From positions 13,259,117-13,323,116 of the forward strand of contig CM026421.1 in assembly GCA_014871385.1 (NCBI GenBank): 64,000 bases of DNA, given 5' to 3'. The notes beneath the pieces were generated by a model, which worked only from the letters and a program-made list of their open reading frames with translations, was not told the origin of the DNA and ran no database searches. Made by a program: the position numbers and the translations under genes. Shown one piece after another: positions 8,704 through 62,360 of this stretch (its first letter is position 1; each line of letters begins with the position of its first letter). The stretch comes from Ceratodon purpureus. Its lineage: Eukaryota; Streptophyta; Bryopsida; Pseudoditrichales; Ditrichaceae.

Positions 8704-9282
8704 TCAAATCGTCACGAGGAGCCCTGGTTTGGTTCCACCCACAGCATGCCAAAGCTTGCTCGTCCAGAAAATCGGAGATGGTGGTTCCAGCAGTGTTCCA
8801 GAGTCTGAAGCTACGCAGGCAATGAAGCTGACCCAGACGGCTGTGTTCCAGAACTCTCGTAGCTGAATCAGTTTCCCCTCCTCCACAGTCCATATATGCA
8901 CCCATGATGCAACCTCTCCGCACACGCCCTCCGCAATCACAAAATTGCGAGTCGCAAGAATGCTGGACGGGGTCAGGGCTACGGATCGGTGCGAAGTGAC
9001 CCCTGTGAGCAGCTTGCTCATGTGCTGGTGGCAGCGCGGCCCGTGGAACCAGAGGTCGAGGTCCTCGGCTAGCAGATGGCTCAATAACCCAGTGTTGCCC
9101 ATGGCAAGAGCATTGTAGAAGCATCGCAAGATGCATTCGTTGTTCTTTGGCACATCGACCAGAAGCGTGCAGGTACTAGGCACAGATTTCCTCTCATGAT
9201 CGTCTGTTTCAAGTGCACTAGTGGGGAATACTTCTAAGGAGTTGCTTCCTTGGGAAGAATTGCAGGAATTTTCTTGGCTCAT
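8704..9282 (-). CDS. WUN1/SAG20-like protein, NTF2-like fold
   Basis: A single exon of 192 residues. From about residue 40 it matches the plant Wound-induced protein 1 / senescence-associated SAG20 family, a SnoaL/NTF2-like alpha+beta barrel. Landmarks in order are ILRCFYNALAMGN, LAEDLDLWFHGP, HMSKLLTG, FVIAEG, ASWVHIWTVEEGKLIQLREFWNTA and the C-terminal WHAVGGTKPGLLVTI. The first 35 residues are serine- and asparagine-rich and probably disordered. These proteins are induced by wounding or senescence in flowering plants; their biochemical function is not known. The ATG at 9282 is the first in the frame. The F-box gene lies head-to-head 1.1 kb away, so the two may share a promoter. Confidence 0.85.
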   Translation of the reverse strand: MSQENSCNSSQGSNSLEVFPTSALETDDHERKSVPSTCTLLVDVPKNNECILRCFYNALAMGNTGLLSHLLAEDLDLWFHGPRCHQHMSKLLTGVTSHRSVALTPSSILATRNFVIAEGVCGEVASWVHIWTVEEGKLIQLREFWNTAVWVSFIACVASDSGTLLEPPSPIFWTSKLWHAVGGTKPGLLVTI

Positions 9283-10416
9283 TTGACCTTGCTCTGCTGC
9301 CGGAACAGCCTTGCTTCGAATGTGGTTCTGTTCGGCTGCATGTGTTGAGTAACAAGAGCTTGTTAGCAGGAAAGGAGAAGCATGCTAATGGGTTTGACGT
9401 GAGCAAATCAACCTTGTAGATGAAGAGCTCACAAGCTCACTCCATGCCCGGATAGGTGGCAGCGGCTGCAATATGAGATGATGCTTCAATTGCTCTTCAT
9501 GCTACTGCAGAGTGCTCCTTCGCCTTTCTAGGTAGTCTTCTGCACCTTCTCTTCTGCTTGTGAGTTACATGTTGTAAGAGGTGAACCTGCTATTTGAGTT
9601 GGATTTCTTTTGCTTTACCTTACATGGTCTATAGCACAGAGCTCACATTCAGAGGAGATGCAGAAGAAATTTGTTCTCTGCAACTGGTACTAATTCATAT
9701 TCTGTGAACTTCAGAGCAAGAGATTATGTTTTTTCTGATTTTCCTGACTGATATTTGGTTGACGAGATTTCGGTCCAGTGGAGGAGATAGTTTTGGTCAA
9801 AGCAAACCTTCACGGAGCTCCTTCAGTTCAACAGAAGTGTGGCATGCTCCTCGCCTCCTGCCTACCTCCCAGACCTGTGGCCGTTTCAGCCGTGCTGATT
9901 TTTCAGATCTTCCAGAAGGTAGTTTTTCCCACTTGTCTGAATGTACCAACTTGTTGAAGTTCGCCCAATGTCAAGGGATGAGTTAGCTTGCATACGTCCT
10001 GTGTCTGTGCCAGTTCGCTTGGTACACATTTGAGTATTTCGGAAAGTCCACCAATTACCCCTCTGGCAATTCGGTCGTGACTATTTTGCTACGTCCTTCT
10101 AAAAGTTATCAAAGGAAAGACATCCTTGCCATGATGCTAACAATTTTGCACTTCTGTACTGATCGGAACTTCTGAGTAGTTGCACATCTGTTTTACTTTC
10201 TTGAACAGTACGGTACCTGATTCAAGCAGTTGGTGTTCAGTACCTATTTCTTTGTTACAGAAACATAAAACCACATGGGAATTTGGTGTATATTATTTCC
10301 ATTAGCATGTTTGAACATTTTTCTGACGATTTTCGGTTTGCACTTTGCATCAACATCATATCTGCAATCTCCTCGACTCTGGCTAGAGCCAACAGCTGTT
10401 GCTCCGTCTACAAATC
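9283..10416. promoter_or_regulatory. Divergent intergenic region, WUN1-like and F-box genes
   Basis: The 1.1-kb spacer between two genes transcribed away from each other must hold both promoters and leaders. No coding frame is convincing. No specific cis element is clear enough to call. Confidence 0.4.
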
Positions 10417-11895
10417 ATGGAAGATGATAAAACTGGGCCTCACATGGAAGCCAACACACTTGCTATGCCAAACATTTCAATCGATCCAATTCCAGAGGAT
10501 CCAGCAAATTCTGCAACAGAAGATGCCGACGCGAGAGACAGTGCAGTTGATGAGAGTATACAGGATACAGACAATACTAGAAGCGAATCATTTCCAGAGG
10601 ATGCAGAGGACACAACTGATCCTCACATAGAAGATCCAGAAGCAACGGCAAGAGAAGGTGCCAACGGGACAGACAGTGCAGTTGATGAGAGAGTACTCGA
10701 CACAAGTTTCAGTGAAATGATATGGGCACAGCTAATACCTGATGCCGGAGCATGGATAAGAGAACAGGAGATGGATGACACAATCTGGGCTCAAATACCC
10801 GACGAGGTACTGATAAGAGTATTGTCCTTCTTGCCATTACGAATGTTGTTTCAGATGCGAGTTGTCTGCAAGCGTTGGTCGAGCATGATTCAAAGCTCTG
10901 ACTTCAACAGAGTATGCTTAGACGTCAATGCTCCCGCCCTGGCCCCTCACCCCGCCATCTGCTACGTCTACAACCGTCTGGGCTTCCGGTGGGCAATCTA
11001 CGACAACTCGGAAAGACAATGGCAGCTCATGCCAGACTTCTACAGCAGATCGGAAGAAGACCGAATGAAAAAGCGAGAAATCTACGTTGCCAGCCGAGGG
11101 CTCCTCTGCTTGCTCGAAGTTGGCGACATCGACGTCATCAAAAGCCTCACAATCTGGAACCCGTTAACAAATCACGAGCACGAATTACCCACATTCCTCA
11201 GCTCCTGGTCATTCCCTCTTGTCCGCATCATGTTCCACGACACCGAGACGAACTCCTTCAAACTCATGTTATCTGGTAATCAGAACTACCATCCAGAGGA
11301 CGAGAGATACTCTGCCACAGAGATCTACGACTCTGCACAAGGCGCCTGGATCCGAGGTGGAAACCTTCTCCCCAGCCTCAGGTTCCCATTCTCAAACGGC
11401 GCAATCTGCAACGGTGCAGTGTACTACTTTGCCAGCAGACCCATGACCATGTATGATATCCTCCTGGTTTACAACATCGGCGAGAATAAGTGGAGTGAGG
11501 TTAACCACATCATCCCCACAAACACTTACTGCACGCCTTACCTGTTCGAGTGCGATGGAAGCTTGCTGACGGTGATGCATCTGTTGTCGGGTCCGCCTGC
11601 TCGGATGGCCAGCTGCGCTATCTTTCACCTGGACTTTCGAACGAAGGAGTGGATGATGCTGATCCAGATGCCGCACCCGGTGTACATGGACTTCGCATAC
11701 ATCGGAGGATGCGTTGCATCCGGGAAGCAGTTGTGTGTAACAGGCAATGCTCCCAACCGCGACTTGATTGTGGCCGTGTACTGCCAGCGGAACAATGCGT
11801 GGTTTTGGCTCCCGCCGTGCCCCATTGCTTCCGAGTCTGCTGAGCTCATTGAGCGTCACACCACTTTCACCTTCCACCCCTCCTTCACATATTAA
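10417..11895 (+). CDS. F-box protein with C-terminal beta-propeller-like region
   Basis: A single exon of 492 residues from the ATG at 10417, the first in-frame ATG. Residues about 1-115 are acidic and low in complexity, and contain an internal duplication (about 45 residues) built around the repeated DSAVDE. The F-box follows at about 122-167, with IPDEVLIRVLSFLPLRML and VCKRWSSMI. The rest resembles the Kelch/galactose-oxidase-like repeats of plant F-box proteins, with motifs such as LTIWNPLTN, TEIYDSAQGAWIRGGNLLP, GAVYYFASRP and LVYNIGENKWSEV. The expected role is substrate recognition in an SCF (SKP1-CUL1) ubiquitin ligase. The substrate is unknown. A long single-exon structure is common for F-box genes. 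Confidence 0.88.
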   Translation: MEDDKTGPHMEANTLAMPNISIDPIPEDPANSATEDADARDSAVDESIQDTDNTRSESFPEDAEDTTDPHIEDPEATAREGANGTDSAVDERVLDTSFSEMIWAQLIPDAGAWIREQEMDDTIWAQIPDEVLIRVLSFLPLRMLFQMRVVCKRWSSMIQSSDFNRVCLDVNAPALAPHPAICYVYNRLGFRWAIYDNSERQWQLMPDFYSRSEEDRMKKREIYVASRGLLCLLEVGDIDVIKSLTIWNPLTNHEHELPTFLSSWSFPLVRIMFHDTETNSFKLMLSGNQNYHPEDERYSATEIYDSAQGAWIRGGNLLPSLRFPFSNGAICNGAVYYFASRPMTMYDILLVYNIGENKWSEVNHIIPTNTYCTPYLFECDGSLLTVMHLLSGPPARMASCAIFHLDFRTKEWMMLIQMPHPVYMDFAYIGGCVASGKQLCVTGNAPNRDLIVAVYCQRNNAWFWLPPCPIASESAELIERHTTFTFHPSFTY

Positions 11896-14024: not shown

Positions 14025-17000
14025 TCACAGAGAGCCTGCAACATCCAGCTTACTCTCTTCTGATTCCGACTCTGTGGGAAAATCCAAAAACTCCTCCCAT
14101 AGCAATCCCTCCAGCTCTTGTTTCTCTTTCTCGGAGAGCTCGGCATTAGTCTCCCTGCCGCACACAAAAGCAGCCCTGGAAATGGAAAGAACCAGAATTA
14201 GCATAGCAATGTATGTCATACACTTCACTAGCAAACACTAAGATCATACCTCTAGCCATCTTGCTTAACAGACACTCCCGACCTTCCCAGCTCCATTAGC
14301 ACAATACGATCACACCACCAAGTTTCTAGTATTCATATAGAACTTACGGATTTCTAATAAATTTATATTCCAAAAAGTTGGGTAGTCATAATAGAAATCT
14401 ATGGATCCGTCATTTAATAGCTGGCCCTTCAAAACAAGCCGACAGTGACGATGAAAGTAGTGATTACCGATCATACATATGTGTAGCCTCTTCCAGGCTC
14501 TTACTGTTGCCTAAAACATAATTCTTCCCATTTACAACTATTGAAGCTCTGTAGAGTTTCTTCTTCCAAACGACCCCTTGTGGTAAAGTAGACACGACAC
14601 TCGCCTCCTCCAGCTTCTTGTTTGATGTTTGTGACCTCTTTGTTTGAACATCTGTGGAAATTGCAAAATAAAGATAGGGGATTTCAAATCAAAAGATACC
14701 ACAAAGACCAGGGATATTGATGTTTTCAAAGCGCATCTAGACATACTCCATTATAAGGTGAGGAAACATAGAATGCGACCAGTATAAAATCTCAAAATTA
14801 TCTGGCCTGAATTATAGACAACGACTAGTACCACAGATAATCCTTATGAATAGTTTCAGAATATAAATTCCTGCTTACCCTTTTTTAATGCTAATGGCTT
14901 TAGATGATTAACAGGTGGCTCAGTAGAAACTATCACCGGAGGCCTCTGCGCACCAAAAAACCTGGAACATGAACATCCTCCATTGTCAGTAAGGTAATGC
15001 AAAGTAGTGAAAGTGCGAATAGCAACTGCAAGTTTCCTTTTCGCAAGAAGTATCAATGTACATCATGAATATCACAATAAAAACAAATCTAAATCATCTT
15101 TGTCCACAACTGGAATAATTTGGACGGATCAACGGCACTGCAGAAGAAATTCAATGACAGAATGCACTATCTCCAGTGAGTATCAACATGAAAAACAAGC
15201 GATGTTGTATGACCAGCGGCCACAAAGCTTCGGATATAATTTTGTGGTCACAAATTTACAGAAAAAGATCGGTATTGCAGAATCCGGAGACCATACTTAG
15301 AAGCAGACAGAGGTAAGCATGTACTCACGCGTGCATTGAGTTGCCTGGGTACATAGCCGACATGTAAGGAGGCATGAAGGGAGGCATGAAGGGGGGGATT
15401 CCATAAGGCGATCCTTGCATCATGGGAGTATCATAAGGCATGGGTATCCTCCCTGTCTCAGATACACGACATATCAGCTAAATATCTACGCAACATATGA
15501 CTAAACAGAGCCTGAAAAGAGGGTATCAGTCGGGAGGAGGAGCATCACTAGCATGAAGAAATGAAGAAACCGGAAAATACAATGAACGCGATTCTCGTCA
15601 AATGAAACCATTATCTGTATCCGACAATTTGCTTCAGAATACATTGGCCTGTATTATCACTGTGAAAGAAAACCGCGTTCGAAGTTAACGTACCAGGAGT
15701 GCCAGGCGTGACGTTATCATTCAATTTTTTCCTTCCACCTTCCGATTTAGGTAGCTTTGCTTTGTCTTTGCCCTTCTCAGTATCTTCTACCAGCCCGTCT
15801 GCCTCTCCTTTAGCATTCATTGCCTCGAATACATTTGTGATTACTATCTCCTCTAAAGGTTCCGCAGTGTTGTTTTCAGCATTTTGAGACACTGCACCCA
15901 AGTCCTGGGAAGGCGAATATGCACCTGCATTTGCATCTGAACAACCAAACGAGACGTAATCATCAAAGTTCACCCAAACCATTGGTTATATAAAGTGAGT
16001 ATGCTGTGAAAACAAAAAGCTTCAAGAGGTAAGATGAATTTCAGAATCTTTCCCCACCCTTGCATTTACAGGACGTGCAACAAGTATTAAAAGGAGACTA
16101 GTATCTTTAAGTTTAGGACCTGGGAAAACAAAAAACCACTCAAAAGAAAGGATAAGTCGGACAACAGAAATGGCAAACATACCTTTCGCACGGCGTTTTT
16201 TGGAACTCTTGGTCTTCTTCAATTCTAAAAACTTCTCGTACAGCTCCAATAACAATTTTGCATCTGTTTGACAATACTGCTTATACTGGTCGAATGTAGA
16301 CAATTCTCCCATACTTGTCGCCTCCTTTAGCATGGCATCTAAAACGGCCTCGGAGCAATATTTCTTCGCAACTACGAACATGGAGATGGCGTTTTCTTTA
16401 CAAATATTGGCCACCAAAGCCTCCTCGCAGACTAACCTAAGATACTCAACCTTGTACTTATCTGCTGCTTGTAAAAGAGACGGAGAATGCTTCACCAGCA
16501 ACTTCGGATCTACTGAAGCTGTATAGAAAAATTTCACGAATGTGCTCAGCTCCTCATGGGACATGTCAGCCATTTCAATAAGATTATCTTTGACTTCAAC
16601 GCGAAAGAGGTTTTCAAATTCTTGAGATTTTGCTGCCTGCACGAAACAAGCACTTATATTATACGCTCAGACACATAATCAAACTGTCTACAAGTTTACA
16701 TCAAGAACTGTCGACAGAAACACCTCCGTCGTCGCTTACAGTAGAGAAGAAGCTACAATACAATACATTGAATATAAACAACCCAAAGTCTCGTAATTCA
16801 ACAGTGAAACTCAAACCACGATTTCCAGCTGCAAATTACGCAATCAACCAGCGACAACAGATAAGCTAACCAGAATAGCCTTGTGTGCATGGACACGCCC
16901 CGCATCTTTGGCCACCAGCTGGACATCCACATGTGAACCCTCCGAGTCAAGACCAGAATGCACATCCGGCTTCCACAGTGCCAAGAAATCCCGCTGTTGT

Positions 17001-17170
17001 TCCAGCTGCTTCACTTGGGTTTCCAAGCTTTTGAGCTTGTCGGCTTTCCAAACGCTAAGAAAGTCCCTCTGCTTCTCAAGAAGCCGCACATGCGCTTCCA
17101 TGTTCCTGACCATAGCCTCGGCAGCACGCAATCGTGAGCTATTCCAGTTCTCGATGGGCACCTTCTCCAT
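14025..17170 (-). CDS. BTB/POZ protein with coiled-coil N terminus and AP2/ERF-like domain
   Basis: Seven exons on the minus strand, 17170-16871, 16636-16183, 15936-15694, 15452-15329, 14961-14879, 14651-14468 and 14175-14025, sum to 1539 nt, 512 residues. Residues 15-65 hold two copies of a coiled-coil unit (EKQRDFLSVWKAD and EQQRDFLALWKPD). The BTB domain spans about 72-180 (DVQLVAKD, HAHKAILAAKSQEF, FVKFFYTASVDP) and is followed by a BACK-like helical part to about 245 and a basic patch KKTKSSKKRRAKG. Residues 250-400 are low-complexity, then proline- and methionine-rich (MPPFMPPYM). Residues 426-477 resemble an AP2/ERF domain: YRASIVVNGKNYVLG, SLEEATHMYDRAAF, then G and N at the expected spacing. 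The tail is acidic (WEEFLDFPTESESEES). BTB proteins usually act as CUL3 adaptors. An alternative upstream start at 17203 is possible. Confidence 0.82.
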
Positions 17171-20004: not shown

Positions 20005-21700
20005 TCAGTGGATGCTGCTCATGAGAGTTTCCCCAGCTTGACAATCACTCAAACGCAACTCGATGGAATCGTCGCTCCACGCCTTCACCTTACAGCATGA
20101 TCTCCGAGGCGTCTGCATGCATGCCCGGACAAACAAGAAGCGAACTTAATCATGGATACTTACAAGAATAGACCCACATGATATGAACAAGAAGCTCTCC
20201 CCGACCTTTGAATCTATACATCAGTGACGGATTCAACATAAAATGACGATTTCGCACCTCAAACCAGGAGTTGGCGACGGGCTCTTTGAGAATTCTAATG
20301 CGTCGGACGGTAGTGAGAGGCTGCAAGTCCTTCTCACACGATGCTCTCGTCTGCTTCAAATCTTCATTCCTCAGATACACACTCTCCAACAAGCTGCCAG
20401 GTGAATTTGTGCTCTTCGTGCTCTTCACCGTCTTCATGTAGAACATAGCCGGCCGCTTGCACAGCTCTTTGGGCGGTTCCCGCGTGTTGAACGGAAACTC
20501 GACCTTATCGTTTCGACGTTTGATGCTAGAAAACGTCCGCAAAGGCGTCTCGAGCTCCCGTGGAGTGAGAAACCCTTTGTACACTTGCACCACGTATCCC
20601 CAGGAGACCGAGATCGACCACTTCTGCCCGTCGGCGTAGCAGACGGATTGCTGCAAGACGCTGGCGGATTCTACCCTTGCAGCTTCGAGGAGATGGTCGA
20701 TGGCAGCGTACTTGGTGAGCCCGGGGAAGATGGGCTGGATCAAGTCCATGTGGTGGATGCTCACGAGAGGCGCCTGCGGATGCGCTGCCAGCATGCCCAT
20801 CGCATTTCCTTGGATGTCCATCTGGTGGAACCCTAGCTCCTTCGTGAGCGACACGCCGAGCTCGCTCATGCACACGAAGATGCGCTCGTCGCTGCCGAAC
20901 AGATCTGGGTACCTGGCGAGGCAAGCGTCTTGCATGTGGGCGAGCTCCGCAGCCAAGGGGTAGCTGATGGCGAATCCTCCGCCACCGAAGGCCATGTTGA
21001 AGGAGAACAGGACGTTCTGCGTGTGGGTCTCGGAGTTGCTGCCGATGTAGTACATCTTCCTGCTGTCGTACTTCGACAGCACCTTCACCAGATTCTCTGG
21101 GAAGAAGAATGTGTCATCGTCGCCCATGACAAACCAGTCCACATCCGGCAACCCCAGGCGGAATGTCTCCGAGACGATTCTTGCGATGCGAGTGGCGGTT
21201 CTCTTGCGGAGATTGAACGGGTAGTTGGAGATGTCTTCAGAGACTTTGAACGGCGGCACATCTTTCTCCCATGTCCCGTTCACCTCCCGGTCCAACCACA
21301 CGATGGCTCTTGTGCTCTTGTCCAAACTGTACCATCTCCTGATGTATTCCTTCCTGTTTGGCCAGTTCTTCGCTGCCCCTGCGATGCCGAAAACTATTCG
21401 AGCAAGATGGGTGCCTTGCTTCGGAGCAGGACTAAGAGTGGAAGGTGGTTGTTGCAGGGGTGAGGGGAGGGGCTTCTGTTCCGGAGTAAAGCTGGGATCG
21501 GATTGAGTGACCATGCTTGACAAGGTATGGACGGAGATGTATTTGCCGGCTCTACACATAACCAGTGATTGCAGAAGGTAGACCAAGGTGAGCGCGCAGC
21601 CGATGACGATGGCGAAGCTGACCCAGGAGAAGCCATGGTCGAAGAAGTTTAGAATTCCCCATGAGTTCGACTTTTTGGGTGCATTCGCCTTCTGGGCCAT
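20005..21700 (-). CDS. DUF604 Fringe-like (GT31-type) glycosyltransferase
   Basis: Two exons, 21700-20258 and 20112-20005, join in phase 0 to 516 residues. It is a type II Golgi-style protein. A short cytosolic tail is followed by one membrane anchor at about residues 26-48 (VSFAIVIGCALTLVYLL) and a proline-rich stem to about 98. The catalytic domain begins at RIVFGIAGAAKNWPNRKEY. The metal-binding DDD lies at 194-196 in VMGDDDTFFFPENL, followed by GGGGFAIS at 239-246, typical of plant DUF604 / Fringe-like proteins. The small second exon encodes TPRRSCCKVKAW and ends MSSIH; it restores the conserved C-terminal PRR-x-CC motif, so the longer unspliced frame ending CKYP is likely wrong. Sugar donor and acceptor are unknown. 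An in-frame ATG at 21760 would add 20 residues, but the ATG at 21700 gives the usual short cytosolic tail. Confidence 0.87.
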
Positions 21701-24700
21701 CGCTGCTTCCACCCTGAGGTATCCAATCTTACAGCATGAGCCCGCGTCTGTGACACACAAAGTAACGAAGAAACTCGGTTAAACTTGTATTTGTATTTCA
21801 CAGAAACTCCCTCCTTGCACAACTCGGTAGCAAGCTCCTTGTGTATGGAAAATCAGTGTACAAAATTGTTCCGTGACACTTCTTGACTAAATTCCTTCAT
21901 CAGCAACCGTCTTTTCCTCGTCACTAGTATGATGGCAGTCGCATCAGTTCGCTACTAAGAACCGAATTTACAATCGAATAGTGTACGTCAACAAGTGGAG
22001 TATCATCTGCTTCTTCATATTGCTCCTACACAATTCTCTTTACTCCATTCCGTAGCTGTTTGTTTCAAATCCATTTAAAGAGCAGTAAAAATTCAAATCG
22101 GTCCCTTGCGAACTAGCTGCAAGCTGAAGAAAAGGGGGATCCAAAACCAAGTCGCATCGTAATTCCGGACTCAGAAGATTCTCGAAATACTTCAAGAACA
22201 AACAAACGGTTGCAAGAGTAGGAAAACACATGAACAACTATGTTGAATCTCTAACGATGCAAGCACTAAACCCTGAGCTTTCGAACACCGAAGCTTCTTT
22301 CAACTTCAAAGAGGGCAAATTTGGGGATCATATCTCCGGCAGCTTCGGAAGATCACCATGCCACGCCATCGACTCGCCATCATTCAAACTAACAAATTCT
22401 GCGAAATAAGGTCAAATCAGCCGAGGAATTTTTACCTTCAGTCGCTCAACGAGCTCCAGATTGCGCCGTGCCTCACGTTGTAATCACTGCGGCCTTCTAG
22501 TTCTCTTCTTGTGCGCCAGTCTTCCAAACGTCGGCTTGGAAGACAGAAATCAAGACACAACATTAAACTTGAAACACACTCCGACGCTGTGAATTTGTTT
22601 GCACCAGTTCCAAAATACGTCAGAAACCACGATCAAAACCCTCCCATACTCTATTCTCCTTTCCAAGTGGCTCCCTAACCACTCCTGATGCAATTAATTG
22701 CTAGTGTCAGCCTGACCGACCGGTAGAAGCTCCTCTCGAACGACGTTCGGAGCAAGTACAACACATGCATCACTGCTCAGATCGGACACAAGAGAAGCAA
22801 GCTTGAATTCACAGCGAGATCGAAACGATGATCGACAAGATGCTGATCATCACATCCAAGGTCCGGCCCATCGTGTGGGAAAGCCGTCCGATCATGTCAG
22901 TGTAGTACCATTCACCCGGTTGCCTGTCTGTGTGTGTGTCGACGTCACACCGCTCCCGGGAATTGAGTCGTCTGTACAAGTCCAGATGGACTATGGAGGT
23001 CTGGCGTTGGACTCGGCACTGAAACAGGTCCAAATTCCTCACTCTTCTCGCCTGCAAAAACAATGTTTTTGCAAAAGATCGGGGCCCCGCTTTCAGGCTC
23101 CAGCTTTCAGTCAACGGCGAGAAAAGGAGGGCCCTGGCGTCGATGGTTGTGGTGGACTTTCCATGGCGTCACCAAAAAAAGGAGAAAGTTGGTGTGCGAG
23201 CTCTGGGACCCAGCTTGATCCGGCCAGCTTCATGGACAGGAATTCTCTCTCATGACCAGTCTCATCACCTGCAACGATGGCAAACCAAAGTTTTGTCTTA
23301 AATTAAATTAAATTAAGATGACAGAGGTATGAATGCAGTGTATGACATACCGATTTCCGAGTTTTCCAATAATCAAGCGATGGGGAGAAACTAGACTGCG
23401 TCGGAAGGAAAAACTTGAGCATAACTTGCCAGCGTTGGAAGGAAAAACTTGAGTGTAACGTATATCACAGGAAGCTGCTTTGTCTACTTAACTGGTGAGA
23501 AATGGGTTCAAAAATCATGGTAATCAGTTTCTGTGCTGTTCAGTACTTGCTATTTTGCACAAAACTTGCTATGGACAGCAGCTGGGGTACTTTCCAGTAA
23601 ATGGAACAGTGTTCTCTGTGGTAGTAGGTGTAAATTAGCCCAAACAGTGGTAGCAATATTCAAAAAGGATTGGTATATATTCCAGTATTTTAACTTTGGG
23701 TTCCGGCTATACCTCGCCAGGCACTGCATGCCATGCTGCATGCACTAGTACTGTAACAGCCAATGGAGAAATATATTTTATTACATTCCAGGTTTAGGTG
23801 CCAGATGTAGGTGGAAAATTGCTGTGGTGCGTGACTTTCACTGTGATGCCTGAGATAGAAACTATCAGTAGTAAATTAGGTGAATGATTTTCCACCACTT
23901 TCTCTAAGCCTGTGACTAAATTATTATTCTACATGCATCAACAGTAACCATCTGGGATTCTCGGCCCATATTGGTCATTTCATGAACAAACAATTTTGAC
24001 ACTGTAATGTACAGATTCCTTCTGTTTTTGGATCTTTGGACATTGACATTAATCAAATGATTGTTGTTTTTTTTCTTCTAGGTAGTAGGAAGTTGGAACC
24101 TGGGAAAAACACTGAGAAGTAGGAGTAAGTGACAGCAGTCACGGTGGTAAGAGCATGTGCTTCACCTTAGAATTGCTGCCACGTACATCCAGTGCACCCC
24201 AATTGTGGTGATGATCATGCAGGGATGATCAGTAAGTTATCGCACAAGTCCAAATTAGTGAATCGGCTGCAACCAATAATGTGCATGCTCCCACGCAGAT
24301 CAAGTATAAAGTACTGGCCTGCTGGTATTCCGATCACCAGTTGAAGCAGTTTAGCAATGCAATGACCACGGTGTAAGGACTTGGTCACTCGTACACAGAA
24401 CCAAAGTATCCATTTCCATATTACAGTATGCAGTAGTTACAGTGACAGGGCTTTGCAATAGAATTCGGAATTCATCACTTGTGCACGATGATTTTGGTAG
24501 AGTTGGAATGAAGTACCAGTGCATAACTTTATAAAAAATAGGACATCTCTAATTACTGGCGATAATTAGTGAGTCTGAGTAAGTTTACTCCCAAAAAATA
24601 TTGGATTGGAGACCAAAGGAATGATTTTTTTTTCATCAAAGAATTCCTGTTTTTGTTGGACTCTAATCTGTAGAAGTAAACTCATAAAACTTGGTTTCTT

Positions 24701-27885: not shown

Positions 27886-30711
27886 CTACCGAAGCTTCCG
27901 TATCGGAATAGCGTTACCAAACAGTTTTCCAACATCGGCGGCATCCATCTCTAGATCTTTGAGCATCTGCTTTTCTTCTACTCCCAGCTCTTGTAAAAAT
28001 CGCTCCTCGTCTAGCTGCAACTGTTGGGCACCCTTGCCAAGGCGGCCAAATAGTGACTGCTGAGCCTGTCCTAGCTTTTTAGTAACAGCCACAAGGAAGC
28101 TCTCTCCTTCCTCCACCTCCTTCTCGACGAACTTCTCCCCCTCCTCGACCTCCTTTTCGACGAATTCCTCTCCCCTCTCCACCTGAAGGAATTTCAAACA
28201 CATGAGCTTATTGGTACATGGTTCTTGTCTTAGCTAATCCACACTCAACTCTTGTCAATACTGGTGTTTAACACTGCCCTCCCTGGAGTAGACTCTACAA
28301 AAAAAGACAATACAACAGATTCAGAAGCCATTACCGTCTTTTCCAGTCTCGCAATCAGTGGTGGTTCTGGTCCACAAGTGTTGTCCGTCGTGGTGAACTT
28401 GCTGAAATCCAGATTCACTTTCTTTGCTGCAGCTTGTAGCTCGGGAATGATACTCTCCGGCAGTTTTGGGCTCTTAGTGTACACCACTGCTCCTCCATAC
28501 CCATCCCAGGCATCGTTTTTCCCTCGGTAGTAGATGAACACATAGTCATCTGGTTTGTTCTCTATCCTTGATGCGGGAATGTACCTGAACAAAATAACAT
28601 TGTATACTAGTAAGCACCAATACCATACATGCCAACACCTTCAAGGATGACTGATATCGTGTGCTCAAGTCTTTTAGACAAGCCTCAGAACCGGTTCCTC
28701 GTCACTCTAGCTAGTACATAAATCCTGACAAGCATCAAAATATTTGCTGAAAGAGCCTAACTTTACTAAACAGCCTTCGCCAACACGGCCTGACGCTGAC
28801 CTTATGTACCTATCGCATGATGCTCGACATAACAGACGTCACATAAACCTATCTGGAGCAGCAATTGTTTCTAACTTGCAGAAGCAGAAGAACTGAGAAA
28901 GCAGATGACAAGGATTCAAGGAACAGTAGGACATGGAAAAGAGCAGACCAGTCATCCTGATAGTGGAGGAACTCGTTGCCATGGTTCAACAAAATTCCTG
29001 GTTGCTTGTCATCTTGTACAAAGTTTTGTACAGTACCACGTGTGAAAAACCCTCCATCCGGAGTAGCAATTCGCCAGCTCAAATTTCCTGTATAATCCAA
29101 CCAAGACGAACCTCTCTTATCAGACCAAATTCAAATTATAAAACCTCACCCTAAATCTATCTTAGAGCAGCAAAGTCACCAACTCTTGAACATTCAGTCT
29201 TAGGAACTAAATTGATTGCATGCAAAACATAGGTTAAGTACCCCCATTTACAAACTTGAATACGTAACGTTCTGAATTTGCAGGAGACAGAGTGTGACCT
29301 GTGAGCATGAGCTACGCCTGGCCTACTCTAAGACAGATTCAGAAACTGCATCCCTGCACTGTGCACACTATCCACATACCTAATATCAATATTCAAAACT
29401 AGTAAATGCTCAATTAGCCACGGACCTGATAGTTTCTGGGGCTCGGCTGTAAACTCATGTTTTTGGCAGTCAAACGTATCAAAGGTTTTGTTCAATCCAC
29501 TGGTGATATACCACGTCCCTGTAAAACGAGTAGTGTCAAACTCAGGCACTAAAGCCTCCGGGGCAGGCACTGGAAACCGGCCCTCGTCTTGCTTCTGAGG
29601 AACGCATCCTTTTCGTGTTACAGCGCAGTCATTGAATTCATCGACAACCTTGTTCTCAAATAAATCTCCGCATCCAATCTGCAAGAGAGCCCAACTGTCA
29701 AAATTGCCAGTGAAAAAGTTATACGAAACACCTTCCACTCCGTCTACCCAGAGTCGATAATCACGAGAAGGTATGCACATAATGTTTGGGCCCCTCTTCA
29801 ACACAGCTTTCCACAAACCTAACACTTAAAATGAGCACAATTTGAGCAATGTTTCCGTCATATAAAAGGTAATGGATTGCCAGACCTGACACTCTGTTTC
29901 GTCAGGACGACCATTGCAGGTTTGCAAACATGCTACATTAGCTGCACACTTCGGGTCTGCAATGCATTTAGCTAATTCCACCCTGCACAACCCACGTAAC
30001 CAATCGACTGAATGAAGTGCTTTGTTAACCGGAACAACGACTCACGCAGGCTCATATCTGGAAATGCAAAGAGGTATAGGGTTTCACTCCCTCGCAAAAC
30101 CCACACACGTTTGAGACTTTTCTAATTGAGAATTTTCACCATTTGCCTGGCTGAATGGCCTCTCCTATAAGCTAGAAACGTTACCAATAACGTACCGGCA
30201 CTCTTTAAGAAGACAAGCACATGTCTTCAGTGGGTCAGCTGCCAACGCATTTGATCCACCCCATAGTAAAACTCCCGCTGCAATAGCTGCAGCCGCTTGC
30301 AACGCAAATCCCTGCTTTTCAGTTTTCACAGAACGTAAGCGAGAAAAACATGGACACTGACAACAGCTTATTTACCAAATCATTCGCAATAGTATCAACA
30401 TTATCGAGCAAATCATTTTCAACATGGGCAACAATCAATAATGAGGTTCCTCTTTAGCATACCTGATATAAGGAGGTGGACTCCCTAACCTCGGTAGATG
30501 AGGCAGAAGCAGCCTCTGTGTTCCTACACTCCCTCTGTGCACGAGCCCTGCAACGACCTCTGGACGCAATCCATGAAGATTGCCCACTCCTGGGGAGCAA
30601 AACGCCTAAGCAGGGCCGACTAAACAAAGAACGAAACTGCGCAGCTGGCGCCGACACACTTTGTGCAGATGGTTGCAAAGGATTACCTGCAACCAAGAGT
30701 AACTTCATCAT
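27886..30711 (-). CDS. VDE: Violaxanthin de-epoxidase, chloroplast lumen
   Basis: Seven exons on the minus strand, 30711-30463, 30311-30196, 29982-29886, 29678-29426, 29087-28949, 28584-28335 and 28182-27886, total 1401 nt, 466 residues. VDE converts violaxanthin through antheraxanthin to zeaxanthin in the acidified thylakoid lumen, enabling photoprotective quenching. Residues 1-83 are a serine/arginine-rich transit peptide. Residues 84-107 form a hydrophobic lumenal signal ending in NALA before [15 protein letters not shown]. The cysteine-rich domain continues through [17 protein letters not shown] and [23 protein letters not shown]. The lipocalin domain starts at [20 protein letters not shown] (about 206-225) and runs past [19 protein letters not shown] to [10 protein letters not shown]. 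The C-terminal Glu-rich helix carries a repeated [10 protein letters not shown] unit and ends IPIRKLR, as in vascular plants. The start ATG is one of two adjacent ATGs. One donor (GTCTGC, exon 5) is weak but keeps the phase. Confidence 0.95.
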
Positions 30712-35560: not shown

Positions 35561-38163
35561 TGGGTTTACAGCGGTGATGGTGCCACCGTGTCATCACTTG
35601 TTTACTAGTACTGTAGTCTGGTATGGTCATCACTTAAGTTACTGCGCTGTTGCTGCTGACGTTAGTGTTGGGAGCCTGGAGGGTTCGTGAGTCATGACTC
35701 GTGGGGGCCGCTTGCACACTCTAAGTTATATTATTGTTGCCTGGACTGGGTGCAGGCGAGAGCCTTGTTTGCTATGCTCTTGGAAACTTTGAGGATGTTC
35801 TCAATCGTAGGATGGAACATTGCTATTTTCATGCACAGATCTATTTCTTGCTTCAGATCTATTTCGACTGTTTTTCTCAAGTATTTTGAGGTTATATTGC
35901 CATATTCTTGTTGCAATAAGTCCAACATCCAACATCCAACATCCATCCAAAAGGAATATCACATATTTTGAATAGGGCACTATATTCAAGTTGGACTTTT
36001 GAAAGGAATTGGAGTTCTTTTTCTTTTAAAAGCTAGTTGGGGAATTTTTAATGTCCCCATTGCAAAAAAAATAAAATTGATGTCACTTGTTTCTAATATG
36101 TAACTTTGATGTTGAATGTCTATATATTCTTTGAGCTTATCAAAGACTGCTAGTTAGTCTTAAAGAATAGTTTTTAAAGTCATTTGTGAATTTCTATTTT
36201 TCATCCTCTTTTAACGTCATGTAAAATTAGTACAATTTTTTCTGATTCTAGTGCATTCTTCTTGGTCCAGTTTTGCTTTACATTGTAGAAAATGACCGAG
36301 ATTTTCAAAAAGTGATTCTAGATTTTTTTATGATGGTTCTGGCTATTACTTTATCATTCTTGGTCAATTGGTTATGATTTCTAACGTGAAAAGGATCCTC
36401 TTTTGGACATGAATGATTTTTAATGTGAAATAAGTTCTCTGTTGGACATGTCATATACAATATATATAAGTGTCACTGTAATAGATTATTCTATGACCAT
36501 ACGATTATTTGAAAGCTCTAGGATGGAAGTGTTTTTATTCTACACAATCACAAACATATAACAATGAAAATGTCTTTGGATATGTCACATCAACAATATT
36601 TTGACTAATTGTAGTTGACATTGGTACTCTTATTTATATATATAATTCATAGAGGATTTTTTTTTACTATGATTATATAGACCTCTCATAGGGCGACGAA
36701 GGCTGGAGGTCTTTGGGCGTAATTCCCTACATGTCTTAAAACCTACGGGAAGTTACGCAAAGATAACTCCTTGCAGTGGGGGCTTAGCGCTTCGGAGGGG
36801 CCCTTTATTTTAAGTCAGGCTTTGTCTTTGCCTTCTCCTTTGAAATCTCCCTCATGCCATGAATCCTTACCACAAAATGGCTCCTTCTTTACATTTTTTT
36901 GCCTATAAATAAAATCAATGGTAAATATGTTTATTGAGTCTAATAAAACAATTCTTCTACAATTGTAACAGTCAAATTTTCAAAATTCTTCTTATCAAAT
37001 AACAATCATATATTTCACTAGTTTTCATAAAGTTACAAGGTAACCAATACCAAAAATAAATATAAATAAATATTATTTATAAAATAGACCAAAAAAGTGC
37101 TTATCGGAAAGATGTAAATGAGTTCAATTTTTTTGGATAATATAGATTTTCAACTTGTTTTCCTACAACTTAGAAAAGTTTCGTGCAAAGTAGACACTTT
37201 AAAGTTATTATTCGAAGACTTTAAATCCAAGCAAAGAGAATGCAGTCATTTGAAAAAGTGGCTAAAAAAGAATCAAAACTATCTAAAAAATCACTTTTGA
37301 TGGCGTTGTGCACTCCATAAGTTTGAGAGATATTCTAAATTGGTCAATTCATATACTTGTTAATTGGTTTAGGGTTCCAAAAGTACTGCAAGGATGTTTT
37401 TTTAGAAGGTCATTTTGCGGTACTTTTTGTGAATTTTTTTTCAGCGAACATTGTTTTTCAAATTGAAAAAAACATCCTCTAAACACAATAAAGGGCACCA
37501 AACGAAGAAATTAAGACTTTGGAAAAGTTCATTTTCATGATTTAGAATCAGTGGTCAAATTAAGTTTCAATTGAAGATGTTCTTTTAATGTAGATGCATG
37601 TGAGATAAACTTTGATACCTTAAAAAATGACTAAATGCTTAGAAACTACACCAAAATGTTCAAAATCAGCTTTGAGCTATGAAAAACAACACACTTCATA
37701 ATCACTTCCTAATAATCACATGTGTCACTTTGTGGTCCACTTTACTGTGCTTCCCCCACTACACATTGACAAAGACAATGGACAAACAGGCAAACAATCA
37801 TTGAAGGTACATTGTTAGAGAGAGATACCCAATTATAATAGTTTATTAATATAATATTCCAATAGCACAAGGCACCGTAGGAGTCGAGTGTACAAGAATC
37901 AAATTGCACCTCTAGAATGAGGCACAGACAACTCAAATCTCCCCAAAAATACTGGAAAAATATACAAATCTGAGGGTGAGCAGTTGCAGATATTCAGGAT
38001 TGAAATTGAAGATATGACAAATGTAAGGTGATTACAATCTTAGTATTTAATCATGCACTTGAGTTGTGACTAGGTTTGTCTATGTGTTTAACCAAACCCA
38101 AGTTCTTGAAGTGGAAGAATTTCTCATTTCTAATATTACAATACAGTACTCGAATCTTCCAAA
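35561..38163. other. AT-rich gene-free block
   Basis: Strongly AT-rich with no credible gene. A three-copy CATCCAA run lies near 35928-35946. A sharply GC-richer island at about 36690-36850 contains an imperfect hairpin (GCGTAATTCCC against GGGAAGTTACGC) and does not resemble a known gene. The block looks like decayed repeat DNA. Confidence 0.5.
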
Positions 38164-41880: not shown

Positions 41881-44800
41881 ATGGTGTCCGCCCTGGGTTT
41901 GGCGGGGAAGACCTCGCAGGCGAAGCAGAAGCAGCATCGACAGCCTCAGGCGGGGCCTGCGAAGGAGAAGAAGAAGGAGATCGATAAGAAGAAGCGTGGT
42001 GTCGAGGGTGGGAAGGAGCGCAACCCGAAGGTTAGTTTGTGTGTGGAATCGGGCGTTGATGGGGGCACTATGCAGGGGTGGAGAGCTATGAAGGCATGAG
42101 GGTTTTTGGTGAGGGTTTTTGGAGAGTGGGTATCTGTGTGTGCTTGGTTTCGGCATGGGAAGGAGTTCCCGGTGTGGGATGTAGGAAGCGGTTCGGTTTC
42201 TGTAGGTCGTAGTGTTGGATCATTTGAGGGAGAGAGGTGCGGCTGTGTGGAGTTCAAATCGTTGGCTGCCCACGTAGGTTTTAGTTTGCAGCTGATGAGG
42301 AGGTTGGGCGGTTGTGAAGCCCTCGTGTTCATTGACTGTAGGGAGAGGCGCTGCAGAAAAGGGAAATTGCAGTGTTTGGGACTCTAAATATGTAGCGTTC
42401 TGTTCTGAAAGGCTGCTCAACGTCTTGCGGGGGATCTCGCAGGGGTTTTTTGGTTCTCTGTTCGATGATTTTTGTGTTCTTCGGGTGATTGCCCCGTCGC
42501 AGATGAACCTACACAGGGTTTTCGGTCTAATTTTCCGGTCGGTCTTACGCAAGGGATGACAATCCATGAGGCTCAGTTTGGTTTTACAGTTGAATTGAAT
42601 TGGGATACCGCTTCGAAATTCTGAAGGGCTTTTGTAGGGTTTAGGATATGCCTTACTAATGCCAGGTTGGGAGTAGTATGCTCTTGGGAGGGTCAAATCT
42701 GATGCTTCTTCTGTTGTGATTAGGCTTTTACATTCAATTCGGCAAAGAAAGCAAAGCGACTGCAGGCACGCACTGCAGAGAAAGACCAGCGAAGACTCCA
42801 TGTTCCTATCGTAGATCGAGCGACCGGCGAACCTCCTCCTTATGTGATTGTTGTCCATGGACCGCCGCAGGTAACCACAATATGCTATTTTCTGCAATTG
42901 AGAAACGAAATACTGCATTTTTTGCTAACGCGGTTTTTGCATTAGAAATTGTTTTCTCTAAATTCTTTCTAGAGATCATTTTATAGACTCAAGAGATTGC
43001 AGTTAACGTGGTGATTATGAAAGCGGATTTAGACTTTTATGCTAGATTCTTGTGAACGTGAATTCTGCGTACTTGGTTGGCTACAAGATTCTGCTTTAAG
43101 TATTCACGACGACAGGCTTCAGGAATCAGCGTTTGGTTTTAATGTTCTAGAATGCAGAATTGATTCAGTGGGGAGACTTACATGGGTTGTATGGAAGTGA
43201 CTGAGGAGCTCGAATCTTGTCAGAACTTGGTTTGTAGTCTAGTTGTTCGTAGTCTTTCTCAGGATGTGATTGTTACTGTAGGTTGGGAAGACACTTTTGA
43301 TTCAATCTCTGGTGAAACATTACACGAAACATAATCTGACAGAAATTCGAGGCCCAATTACTGTTGTATCGGGTAAAATTTCTGCCTACCATGGTTTTAT
43401 TGGCATACACTTTCTTTTGTAGAAGTTGAAGAGCTATTTAATACGGAACACTTGGAGATTTGTTTGAAATGTTACTAGGCATTTTGTACCTTTCAGATAT
43501 CACAGAGGATATTAGAAGTTTTGGTGATTTTAGGGGATGGCTTGACTTGCCTAAGATTTGCTGGAAATATTTTGATGTATCACTTTTTGCAAGACAGTAG
43601 ATTCATCCTCTGCTTAGATTCCTATGTTATTAGAACGATGAATTAAGAAAAAATTGCAATTGTTAATCTTCCTGCCCTGATTGTAGGTAAGACGAGGAGG
43701 TTGCAGTTTGTGGAATGTGCAAATGACATCAATGCTATGATTGATGCTGCTAAGTTTGCTGACCTGGTTTTACTCCTCACGGATGGAAGTTATGGATTCG
43801 AGATGGTGTGTTCTCTTCTCGATGAAACTATTCCAAATTATTTCGAGCTGTTCAAATTCTGAGCTTTAGGGTGTGTTTTATTTTTTGGGTTCTAAACGAG
43901 ATGCAGTTTTTCCCGTTCGTAATGTTGGAACGTGACCATAAGTGTTGGGCCGTGCAGGAAACATTTGAGTTTCTTAATGTTCTTCAAGTTCATGGTTTTC
44001 CAAAAGTTATGGGAGTGCTAACGCACCTGGATAAGTTCAAGGACGCCAAGAAACTGCGGAAGACCAAGAAAAAGTTGAAAAATCGTTTCTGGACAGAGAT
44101 TTATGACGGAGCTAAATTGTTTTATCTCTCTGGCCTTGTCTATGGAAAGTAAGCACCGCCAGTACGTCTTAGTTTGGCCTATACCTTGTACTAGTACTCC
44201 ATTAAGTCTTGTGTGAGTGGCATGAAGTCTGTTTCCGTGTAATAAGGCATGTTCATTGTATTGCGCAGGTACCCAAAGCGAGAGGTGCTTAATCTGGCTA
44301 GATTCATCTCTATTGCGAAGTTCCGACCTCTTTCGTGGCGTGCAGTGCATCCCTACATTTTAGCTGACCGTTTTGAAGATCTGACCCCTCCCGAGAGGGT
44401 TCAGGAAGACCCCAAATGTGATCGCAATGTAGCGCTTTTCGGTTATCTGCGCGGAAGCAATCTCAAGCTAGGAATGAAGGTCTGTATGCATCGTGATTTC
44501 ACTCATGTTCGGGTAGTTTAGAAGCCCTTTCGAAGCTGATCCAATACGTTAATCTACGCCGGGCTTGGTGCAATTGATTGCACCAGTTGAGTCCAATTGA
44601 TTGCACTCCTGTAAAGAGAAAGTTTGTGCATCATCAAATCTGCAAGGAATTAATCTCAGTAGTTTTCATGTTTTGTTTTCTTGATTGCAGGTGCACATAG
44701 CAGGTGTAGGTGACTGCAAGTTAGCTGGAGTCTCGGCACTTGAAGATCCCTGTCCTCTTCCTTCGGCTACAAAGAAGAAAGGCCTAAGAGAGAAAGAAAA

Positions 44801-47800
44801 ACTTCTGTATTCACCCTGGTCAAATGTAGGGGAGGTGCTTTATGATCAAGACGCTACTTATGTAGATATTAATGATCATCAAGTACAGTACTCAAAGTCT
44901 GAGACAAATGGAACTGAAGTTGTGGATCCAGAGTCAGGAGTGGAGAATGATGACGTTGGCGTGGCCATGGTGAAGACTCTTCAAAACACGAAGTACTCCA
45001 TAGATGAGAAACTGAATAATAGCTTCATTCAGCTGTTTCGAGGTAGTGGCCCTATGAAGCTGGATTCGAATGATGCTAAAGGGAAGGAAGAAAGTGAGGA
45101 AGAGGATGATGAGGATGTTGATGGGGACGAAGACGAGGATGAATCAGAGGAAGAAGATGAAGACGAAGACGACGACGATGACGATGACGAAGACGAAGAA
45201 GAAGACGAAGAAGAGGACGACAAAAAGAACGGGAAGACTCGGAAACAGATAGTTCCTTCAACCAATGGGAAGACTGCAAAGAAAAGTAGTGATTCCGAGA
45301 GCGATGATGAAGAGGACGAGGATGACGACGAGGAGGGTTCTCCTGTTAATAAGTCAAGTTCGGGAAAATCACATTCCAAGGCAGTAACTAAAAAGGTTAA
45401 ACCATCTGAGGTAAAGGAATTTGCCAATGGAAGGATAAGACGTAGAGCTGTCTTTGAGGATGAGGAAGAGACAGGCGCTGGACCAAGTGGGGTGGACAAT
45501 GAAGAGGATGTTGACTATGATGACTCTAGTGATGAATCTGTGGATCTTACTGCACCGAATAAGGTACATTCATTTTTTATCAGTAGGTTCCCATGTACAT
45601 AGCTGCATATGATTCTAATATCGAACTGTAGGGTACTCATGGGATTAGTTTCATGTCTTGCGTTCACCGTTTAATAAATAATATGCACCTGTGCATGTAA
45701 GGATTCTGTTTTGTGATGGAGGTAGTAAGCAAATTCTCTTTATATTCAGGGATTGAATCAAGAAAATGAAGAGGAGGATGAGAGTGACGATGACGAAGAA
45801 GAGGACGAAGAAGAGGACGACGAAGAGGATGATGAAGAAAATGAGGAAGAAGAAGGCAGACACACGTCCAAGAAGTCTAGTAAAGGGGATGTTGATATGG
45901 ATGGACCCACAAGAGATGAACTTGAGCAAACAGCGGAGGGACAGTACAACTTGTCTGAAGATGAGGATGCAACTGGTATTGTCAAACTCTAAGATGCAAG
46001 CCTTAAGTCCGCAATTCCTATTTTCCTGCTGTTAAAAACATAGGTTTCATAAACGCAGATATGGATTAAAGTCCTTTAGTATCACCTTTTACTTCCTATG
46101 AAGATTATCATCTTGTATTTTGTATTATACGTGGCTTCCATGTCCCATAACAGGTTTTATAAGTGATAATCTCATACCTCCATTTATGTACTCAACATTA
46201 CTAGTTGCATGTCTGTATGCGTCGGAGTTGAACTAACAGCTCTATTTATTCGTAATTTCAGAGGGAAGAGAAAGCATTGGAGACGCATTGCGATGGAAGG
46301 AGGGTTTGTTTGCACGAGCTCTATCAAGTGTGGAGAAGAAAGTGGACCTCATGCGCCTGGTGTATGGCCAGCAAGAGTCCTTCCAAGGAAGCTCTCTTCA
46401 GAACCCAGATTCTGACAGTGACGATGAGGACCTTTTTAGGTTGAGAAAGAACGATCGTAAGGTGGGTCTCAACTCGTACTTGTTCCTGTGTACTGGTTAT
46501 ACTTTAACTAATGGATAATATCACAGCCCGTATCTTGTGTGATTGTAGTTTATGTGGATTATTATTTGTACTAATTGTAATTGCTCTCTGGCTGCAGAGT
46601 TCTGGCAATGGGGTTGCAAACCTTGACGACATTGACGCAGAGGATTGCAGTAGACTAGAAAAGGATCCAAGCTCCTTCCACGATTGGCGTGATCCGGAGC
46701 TTATTAAATCAGTTCGTGACCGTTTTGTTACTGGAGACTGGAATAAAGCTGCAAACAGGGGTAAAGCAGGGGAAAATGAAGAGGAAGATGCAGATGATGA
46801 TAATGACGGGCTTGGGGACGATGAAGTATTTGGAGATTTTGAGGACCTGGAAACGGGAGAGCAGCATGTTGCAGCCAACCCTGAGGGAGACGTGGGGGGC
46901 GATGCAGAGCCTGGAACTGGCGTAGGGCTTTCTGCAGAGGAAGAGGAGAGACGGTTGAAAAAGCTTGCACTTAGAGCCAGATTTGATGCCCAATATAACG
47001 AGGGATCTGGAGATGCTGCTGAAGAACCTCTTGTTGAGAACGAGAAGAGTAAGCGATTCGGAGGTGCCTCAAATGATTCTGGCGAGAGGGACTACTTTGA
47101 CCAGGTTTTCTTACTTTCATAAATGGATTACTCTCATATATTATTTTTCCACAATACGTTTTTTTTTCGGGTCGATATACACTGAAACGATATTGTTGGC
47201 GTGTTCACCTTTTTCTCTTACTGATTTAATTTAATAATGTAGCTCAACATACGATTTAGAATGATGTAATTGTTGAAGTTCTTAGTTATGTACTGTACAA
47301 GTAATATCTGCTTCTTGAAGTAACCTTGCATTTGTGCGGATTTGCAGCTTAAGGACGAGATTGCTTTGCGGAAACAGAAGAATCTAGCTGAACTGGCAGA
47401 GGTGGATGATGTAACAAGAATAGAGATGGAAGGTTACCGTGGAGGCACCTACTTGCGTCTTGAGCTTCATGGCATGCCGTGTGAAATGGTCCAGTATTTC
47501 GATCCAAGAATTCCATTGCTGGTTGGCGGGTTAGCTCGTGGGGAGGAAGCTGTGGGCTACATGCAGGTATCATAGTTTTTAGTGATACTGTATTAATCTT
47601 TTACCTTGTGGTTTGGATTTCCATCTCAAATCTATGAAGCTGATAAGGCATCTACGATAATAAAGTCAACTTATGTCTTCTTATTCATTGAATCACAGGT
47701 GAGAATAAAAAGGCATCGATGGCATCGGAAGGTCCTCAAGAATCGGGATCCACTTGTTGTATCCGTCGGATGGCGAAGGTTTCAAACAATACCTGTATAT

Positions 47801-49576: not shown

Positions 49577-51040
49577 CCCACATAGCGTTTTTGCACTAAC
49601 TTATATCATTTTGGAACCAACAGTGTAGATCTAACATTTTGTAGCACTCAGGACAATTTAGTATCATTTTATGATCTATGGTGGAGCCTCCTCCAGTGAC
49701 TCCCTGAAATGGAAACATTGAGCTGAAATTTTTTAGTCCTTGTGCTCAGGCTGTGTGCTTCCATTTGAGTTCTAGTTCATCTGTCAACCTTCTCTTGAAT
49801 TGTTTCTTCCTAAACCTGAGTTTCACTACAAACTTGACGTAGAAGTGATCTGGGGCACCAGAAACAATTGACTCTTTTCTGTACACAACCAAATTAACAA
49901 AATAGTATAAAAGGCTATATTCCAAATCATTAACAGGATTTAGATATTTGAAGTCTTTATATCAGTGGTCATGCTTCTATTGAAATCCTCTCATTATTTG
50001 ACCTGGATTATATCTCGTTCTATATAAGTTAGGTTAGAATAGAATTATATGGGTCAAAAAATCCAGATGACCCTCGTTAATTTCGTTTTAAAGTATATCA
50101 TAAAGTTTCTTTTTATTGAGCATTGCAATATTTTGGTAATTCACATTAACTATGATTATTTGAAGTATGGTTTTTATTTTGAGAGCTATCTTTAAGTATG
50201 GATAAGTTTTAAGTATGGATAAGTTTTACTCATAGTCAAATACAATAATGCAATACAATAATGGTATATTTACAAAAAATTAGAGAAATAGATAAGCTAC
50301 TTCCCTCACTTCCCTTCTCATCCAGTGTTGTATCGGTGTTGGTCACGACCAAGTTAGATTATTTAGATCAATCATTTATCCATCAAGTTTAGAGTTCTCT
50401 AGGTCGTGGGAATGTAATCATAATAAGGACAGCCTAGGTGAGTCATTACCTTAGAAGTATTCAATTGTGAAGACCAAAATATTCTTATTGTATAATTGAT
50501 ATAAATTATATGAAAATAAAAATATGAAGATTGACCCCTAAGTAGATTCTTGAACATTGTAGTGAATACACATATTTTTAATCTGTTCAAATGATATACG
50601 TACTTTGGTTTATTCTTATAATGGTGTGTTTATTTATTAAAAAATAAAGCACCGGTGTTAAGATAACAACAAAAAATACACTCAAAATAAAAAGAGAAAA
50701 AGTCAAAATTTACAAAATATTTAGGCATATACTGCAAATTCATCTAAGTAAAACTATCCAAGCATTATCATAACATCATAAAACATTATCAAATCTTACA
50801 TGAATATTGACAAAAAAGTGATTTCAAGAAAAAATAAAAATAAAAAAATCATTGAAGATGTTCAAATCCCATTTAGAATTCTTTTTTTGGAACTTCTAAA
50901 TGGGACTATCCAAGAATCTTATATACAAGCCTACTTTACACACATGTCAATTCAAATGAAAATTATTTAAACTTCCAATCTAGCCCAAGTTTTGGCCCCA
51001 TTTTGGAATTCAAACTAAGAAAAACCTCATTCCAAATGCA
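49577..51040. other. BMS1 3' region and AT-rich block
   Basis: The first 350 bases fit the BMS1 3' UTR. Beyond 49.9 kb the DNA is strongly AT-rich and gene-free. Two tiny tandem duplications occur near 50191-50262 (TTTAAGTATGGATAAG twice, then CAATACAATAATG nearly twice), of the kind left by replication slippage. Confidence 0.5.
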
Positions 51041-62339: not shown

Positions 62340-62360
62340 ATGTGCACATGAACACAGGTA

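Follow-up and report, generated by a model that had tools for sequence, protein, structure and literature searches.

In the 64,000 nucleotides of Ceratodon purpureus DNA analysed here (the window), a BTB domain and an AP2-fold domain are probably fused in one gene, a reading to which we give a probability of about 0.85. Seven exons on the minus strand (17170-14025) join into a single frame of 512 codons that has a TGA stop and no internal stop, and 6/6 introns are bounded by GT...AG. The joining of seven exons in phase, as described in a first-pass annotation of this DNA, is thus borne out (six GT-AG introns, a 512-residue protein), and its proposal that one gene carries BTB and an AP2-superfamily domain in one chain gains support from the exon joins together with the profile matches. 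The chain would run from a coiled coil through an SPOP-like BTB domain, short post-BTB helices and a basic nuclear-targeting patch and, beyond a long and flexible linker rich in Pro and Met, would end in a diverged AP2-fold domain followed by an acidic tail (Table 1). Judged from the sequence, the reading that we favour, at roughly even odds, is that such a protein would act as a BTB-paired, DNA-tethered nuclear regulator.

Table 1. Features of the BTB/AP2-like gene and neighbouring frames (positions in the window; residues of the 512-residue protein)
Feature	Positions	Strand	Content and basis
Exon 1	16871..17170	minus	start codon, N-terminal coil (residues 1-70), BTB start; exon join, codon score
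Exon 2	16183..16636	minus	remaining BTB, post-BTB helices, basic patch KKTKSSKKRRAK; exon join, Pfam, SPOP alignment, K/R count
Exon 3	15694..15936	minus	charged linker; exon join
Exon 4	15329..15452	minus	Pro/Met-rich linker (MPPFMPPYM); 12-bp tandem repeat at 15368-15393
Exon 5	14879..14961	minus	linker; codon score lowest in true frame
Exon 6	14468..14651	minus	bulk of the AP2-like domain (the three strands, start of the helix)
Exon 7	14025..14175	minus	end of AP2-like helix, acidic tail, stop
BTB domain	16406..16945	minus	residues 76-177, split by intron 1 (16637-16870); Pfam PF00651, SPOP alignment
AP2-like domain	14133..14595	minus	residues 421-477, split by intron 6 (14176-14467); profiles, shuffles, exon 6 model
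Basic nuclear-localisation-like patch	16184..16222	minus	residues 239-251; sequence, putative function
WI12	8707-9384	minus	neighbouring frame, family match
F-box with KIB1-4 propeller	10387-11892	plus	neighbouring frame, family match
DUF604	20153-21778	minus	neighbouring frame, family match
Violaxanthin de-epoxidase	28248-28640, 29331-29825	minus	neighbouring frames, family match

The BTB half and CUL3

The BTB domain named in the first-pass annotation is confirmed by Pfam PF00651 (residues 76-177; E = 1.9e-18, 67.1 bits against a curated cutoff of 20.5), and among solved structures SPOP chains come nearest to it, with a best E of 2e-14 and an alignment that starts at residue 92 and ends at 195-196. 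This alignment stops at about residue 196-197, where the post-BTB helices begin, and a Pfam scan of the whole protein found no BACK match; the alignment suggests a 3-box-like start after the BTB domain but does not extend to a full BACK domain. As to the BACK-like helices described earlier, the SPOP alignment thus enters the post-BTB helices (at about residue 197), in which Pfam recognizes no BACK domain. The whole-protein Pfam listing, which at E up to 10 contains six families, includes no MATH, Kelch or HNH match. A match to DNA_pol_A_exo1 over residues 132-237 (E = 0.0059, 16.9 bits against a cutoff of 23.6) was sub-threshold and was taken as chance.

A CUL3 ubiquitin-ligase adaptor, with the AP2-like domain as an arm that targets DNA or AP2-binding proteins, is a possible but doubtful reading of this architecture. 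The closest BTB domain, that of SPOP, itself belongs to a CUL3 adaptor, and the SPOP alignment enters the post-BTB helices, in which the 3-box contacts to CUL3 are located according to the available text of PMC3616122. Plant BPM proteins, moreover, act on ERF/AP2 factors via CUL3, as described in part of PMC6523098; the BPM-ERF link invoked in the first-pass annotation is therefore real, although BPMs are MATH-BTB proteins and our protein has no MATH match. Against an adaptor role stands the alpha3-beta4 loop, the site of the phi-x-E motif in SPOP (PMC3616122, same excerpt): it is three residues shorter than in SPOP, V-K-D being what is left by eye, and with this three-residue gap opposite the SPOP loop no phi-x-E motif for CUL3 was found. 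The lack of either a MATH or a Kelch match in Pfam points the same way. The earlier adaptor idea has the BTB domain as its one foundation and meets a shortened loop where SPOP bears its motif; CUL3 recruitment is possible, but it is not our leading inference.

The AP2-like domain

The best Pfam match of the tail is AP2, at residues 425-466, close to the span (residues 426-477) in which the first-pass annotation had seen an AP2 signature. The resemblance goes beyond chance in the profile comparisons given below, but the Pfam score remains under the gathering cutoff of 33.3 bits, rising from 12.5 bits (E = 0.19) for the whole protein to 15.6 bits (E = 0.02) for the 91-residue tail and 17.4 bits (E = 0.0056) for the 56-residue domain, so that the comparison with PF00847 proposed in that annotation failed at 12.5-17.4 bits. 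Phage proteins with AP2-like stretches also miss this cutoff (0/8 reach it; five are sub-threshold and three have no match), and the cutoff alone is thus no disproof of AP2.

The 56-residue domain scores 34.7 bits (E = 3.2e-8) on PHROG_99, an HNH-endonuclease family, and four PDB-derived plant AP2 domains score 33.8-48.9 bits over that same part of the profile; four further HNH-endonuclease PHROG families match at E of 0.004 or better with the 56-residue domain and 0.011 or better with the 91-residue tail. On an HMM of 21 phage AP2 domains, which were fetched with another protein from loci filtered by a first HMM and are not wholly independent, the query domain scores 28.4 bits against a shuffle maximum of 10.2 (0/20,000 shuffles reach its score; 18,403 were reported). 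On an HMM of five plant AP2 domains it scores 18.2 bits against a best shuffle of 10.7 (again 0/20,000, with 18,682 reported). Among the 35 phage loci, 30 had a match, giving 23 distinct stretches, and L009 and L032 were left out of the 21-domain HMM. The query lies low in both groups: all five plant domains exceed it on the phage HMM (34.8-52.0 bits), and on the plant HMM, where the 21 phage domains score 11.2-48.9, it stands above only 2/21. An HMM of eight phage rows gives 66.3 bits for the domain, a circular value in that similarity to the query decided which rows entered it; with this query-biased profile, the exon 6 frame reaches 61.1 bits, with the runner-up among the 1,072 window frames reported at 6.1. 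With an E limit of 10, tblastn against phages returned 231 records, the best of them at about 0.01; the 40 rows listed have identities of 39-50%, and 27 of these are HNH or homing endonucleases, 7 hypothetical proteins and 6 unannotated. In the alignment to phage rows, the invariant columns of the fold core (G-V...I...LG...EA) are retained and the usual G...A.LNF ending is absent from the C-terminal part. On these profiles, we judge the tail domain to be a true, diverged member of the AP2 superfamily at the low edge of both the plant and the phage groups.

Structure prediction is consistent with this assignment. The fold models cover exon 6 only and end at YDR, the exon 7 share of the helix lying outside them. 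Without an alignment, exon 6 gives a hairpin of two strands and a short helix (mean pLDDT 66.7), and its four best PDB matches are all AP2 (E of 1.2-2.5). Given 17 phage rows (of the 23 distinct stretches), AlphaFold2 places strands at 26-29, 32-39 and 42-49 and a helix at 52-60 of exon 6, with pLDDT of about 90 over residues 31-60. With this aided model, Foldseek ranks the AP2 domains of TEM1 and WRI1 at 1-7 of 396 PDB matches (E of 0.046-0.19, probability 0.98-1.00), and the probability falls to 0.69 for the match after rank 7; ERF1 and ERF96 entries are absent from the best 50 matches of either model. The aided model is partly circular, since its alignment rows are themselves AP2 domains. 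The fold check suggested in the first-pass annotation accordingly came out in part: three strands and a helix are modelled and the top PDB matches are AP2, but the matches are weak (E of 0.05-0.19) and alignment-aided. The exon 6 part is predicted to adopt an AP2 fold, in the beta-beta-beta-alpha order of the plant AP2/ERF domains of ERF1, ERF96, TEM1 and WRI1; the query differs from these in falling below the Pfam cutoff, in its shorter strand loops and in having a BTB domain in the chain.

What such a domain might bind can be approached through the DNA contacts of its relatives. In the available text of PMC7593309, ERF96 contacts DNA through R16, R19, R21, R31 and R39, and its R21, R31 and R39 correspond to ERF1 R152, R162 and R170. 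Contact positions were scored by anchored alignment, in which W154 lands in a gap or on K. The other ERF1 contact positions we take to be R147, R150, W154, E160 and W172. The AP2-like domain keeps 0/8 of these contacts (R152 is replaced conservatively by K), against 8/8 for ERF1, 8/8 for ERF96, 1/8 for each of the WRI1 domains and 2/8 for TEM1 with the same script; the counts for the phage rows (0-2/8) are rough, as P26059B, Javan362 and 24-32N were misanchored or partly anchored. Recognition of the GCC box, which an AP2/ERF label would imply, is thus not supported, and GCC-box reading by this domain is unlikely. We had also considered the 0/8 count as a sign against any DNA binding and dropped this, given that WRI1, which has been solved on DNA (PDB entry title), and TEM1 keep only 1-2/8; the count speaks only against GCC-box reading of the ERF type.

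The same control bears on the suggestion that the domain is a relic without DNA binding, serving as a protein-contact surface or a decoy, which we consider unlikely and which the WRI1/TEM1 comparison has made slightly less likely still. The complete loss of ERF1 contact residues, the missing G...A.LNF ending and the low-edge scores on both HMMs (28.4 bits against 34.8-52.0 for plant domains, and 18.2 bits, above 2/21 phage domains) would all suit a relic, but the fold core is retained, DNA-binding WRI1 and TEM1 likewise retain only 1-2/8 contacts, and the stretch is still basic (8 K/R against 5 D/E).

The origin of the domain is a separate matter. That plant AP2 domains derived from HNH endonucleases is a published idea (PMC7714060, which in its available part cites Magnani and colleagues). 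The closest pairwise matches of the query are phage proteins, mostly HNH homing endonucleases (PHROG_99), in comparison sets that hold no plant protein collection; the phage HNH-AP2 domains are 37-45% identical to it over the phage-row alignment and up to 50% in local matches, a closeness that is biased by the choice of rows for similarity to the query domain, and, in contrast to them, the query has no HNH match. A preference for an HNH origin is not shown, as plant AP2 domains outscore the query on the 21-phage HMM (34.8-52.0 against 28.4 bits). That the domain came not from a plant ERF but from a second, separate HNH-type capture by a plant BTB gene is quite unlikely in our estimate. Three phage proteins with an AP2-like stretch (L002:302-931, L006:344-940 and L008:263-859) have no Pfam HNH match, and one of them is annotated as an HNH homing endonuclease/putative DNA-binding protein. 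To go by their sequences, phages may have AP2 proteins that lack HNH and escape notice under the Pfam cutoff.

Integrity of the gene model and its surroundings

The introns of the gene are 227-367 nt long, have a GC content of 0.34-0.41 and are interrupted by stops whichever of the three frames is read. We scored codon usage after training on five further reading frames from the window: the true frame ranks best among sense frames in 6/7 exons, with small margins, but comes last of the three in exon 5, and it is outscored in exon 4 by one antisense frame, which has three stops. The N-terminal coil (residues 1-70, judged by eye; window 16961-17170, minus strand) contains a 15-residue motif twice, VRLLEKQRDFLSVWK at residues 28-42 and VKQLEQQRDFLALWK at residues 53-67, the copies being spaced 25 residues apart.

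It is very unlikely, in our estimate, that the gene model is an artefact in which exons 1-3 (BTB) and exons 4-7 (AP2-like) are separate genes. In exons 3, 5 and 6 the codon score of the true frame is low or falls below zero, the weak coding signal in exons 4-5 makes an artefact slightly likelier, and in-frame Met codons are available in exon 4 (the first at residue 337), but a single frame is kept through six GT-AG introns and only 241 nt separate exons 3 and 4. There is, further, no Met between residue 372 (exon 4) and residue 460, inside the AP2-like helix, and no in-frame ATG precedes the AP2-like core within exons 5 and 6, so that the AP2-like domain cannot begin whole there; on this frame, its sole simple alternative start would lie in exon 4. 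That the AP2 resemblance is itself chance, as the whole-protein Pfam value (E = 0.19) and the unaided Foldseek value (E of 1.2) might have allowed, we judge refuted by PHROG_99 (E = 3.2e-8), with the four other HNH families, shuffles that fail to reach the query score, an exon 6 score far above those of other window frames and AP2 entries topping both fold searches also against it.

The neighbouring frames with family matches (WI12, F-box/KIB1-4, DUF604 and violaxanthin de-epoxidase; Table 1) belong to what we take to be plant families. A retroelement occupies 59829-63104 (minus): its reverse transcriptase match (PF00078) lies at 62364-63104 (E = 9.3e-21), and an 844-residue frame at 59829-62360 has a zf-RVT match (E = 3.6e-7); on the opposite strand, a 264-residue open frame at 58614-59405 (plus) has no Pfam match at E up to 0.1. 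Two acidic frames, one with Asp/Glu runs, tandem repeats and a weak AARP2CN match (E = 0.026; 44685-45599, plus) and one with no Pfam match (46508-47119, plus), are presumably parts of a BMS1-like ribosome-biogenesis gene. Positions 1-2000, 36001-38000 and 50001-52000 are AT-rich (GC 0.24-0.31; all remaining 2-kb blocks have 0.38-0.53). Scans of the window found no tRNA and no Rfam match, and a bacterial promoter/terminator scan, not applicable to plant genes, found fewer sites than the shuffle mean.

Proposed working of the protein and its wider setting

The query has an SPOP-type BTB domain in common with BPM and SPOP, and differs from both in having no MATH match, an AP2-like domain in the chain and a shortened phi-x-E loop. 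In layout it resembles the animal BTB zinc-finger factors PLZF and Miz-1, in which a BTB dimeriser and a separate DNA-binding module share one chain. Their BTB domains are weak sequence matches to that of the query (PLZF, E = 3e-4; Miz-1, E = 0.16), but their DNA-binding fold differs, and the likeness is one of layout, not of descent. The plant BTB subfamilies given in the available text of a 2026 review (TAZ, MATH, NPH, ANK, Skp, DUF and TPR) join a BTB domain to one auxiliary domain, as does the query; in that text, both mentions of AP2 concern BPM targets and there is no AP2 class (PMC13075204).

Between the basic patch (8 K/R against 1 D/E in residues 238-251) and the AP2-like domain lies a linker of 169 residues, and the acidic tail (residues 478-512, 35 residues) has 12 D/E against 3 K/R. 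The tail follows the AP2-like domain as the EDLL activation motif does in ERF96 (PMC7593309, in part). We infer that the basic patch, the 169-residue linker and the acidic tail fit a nuclear regulator. In a BTB-paired, DNA-tethered regulator, the nuclear protein would homodimerise through its coil and BTB domain, each copy contributing one AP2-like domain on a long linker to what may then be a paired DNA-contacting surface whose specificity would be unlike the GCC box of ERFs, and the acidic tail could contact the transcription machinery. Overall, the protein would work like an animal BTB-domain transcription factor made of plant parts.

Searches of an open-access library yielded no BTB-AP2 protein, and a search of viral_contigs for relatives of the whole protein gave two pattern matches, neither of which was confirmed. 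Scanning with the Alf5 protein had no result, and the only NCBIfam match was Tet(X) (E = 0.068, far below its cutoff). As the AP2 part falls below the Pfam cutoff, annotation would label genes of this type simply as BTB, and relatives may hide in other plant genomes.

Plant BTB proteins and AP2/ERF factors otherwise meet as ligase adaptor and substrate. If both folds do lie in one chain, adaptor and DNA-binding arm would be one molecule or, alternatively, plants would possess a BTB-paired DNA-binding regulator; were a separate HNH-type capture true, this would be a plant counterpart of the BTB DNA-binding transcription factors. The fusion would also bear on how frequently AP2 domains have moved from mobile endonucleases into plant genes.
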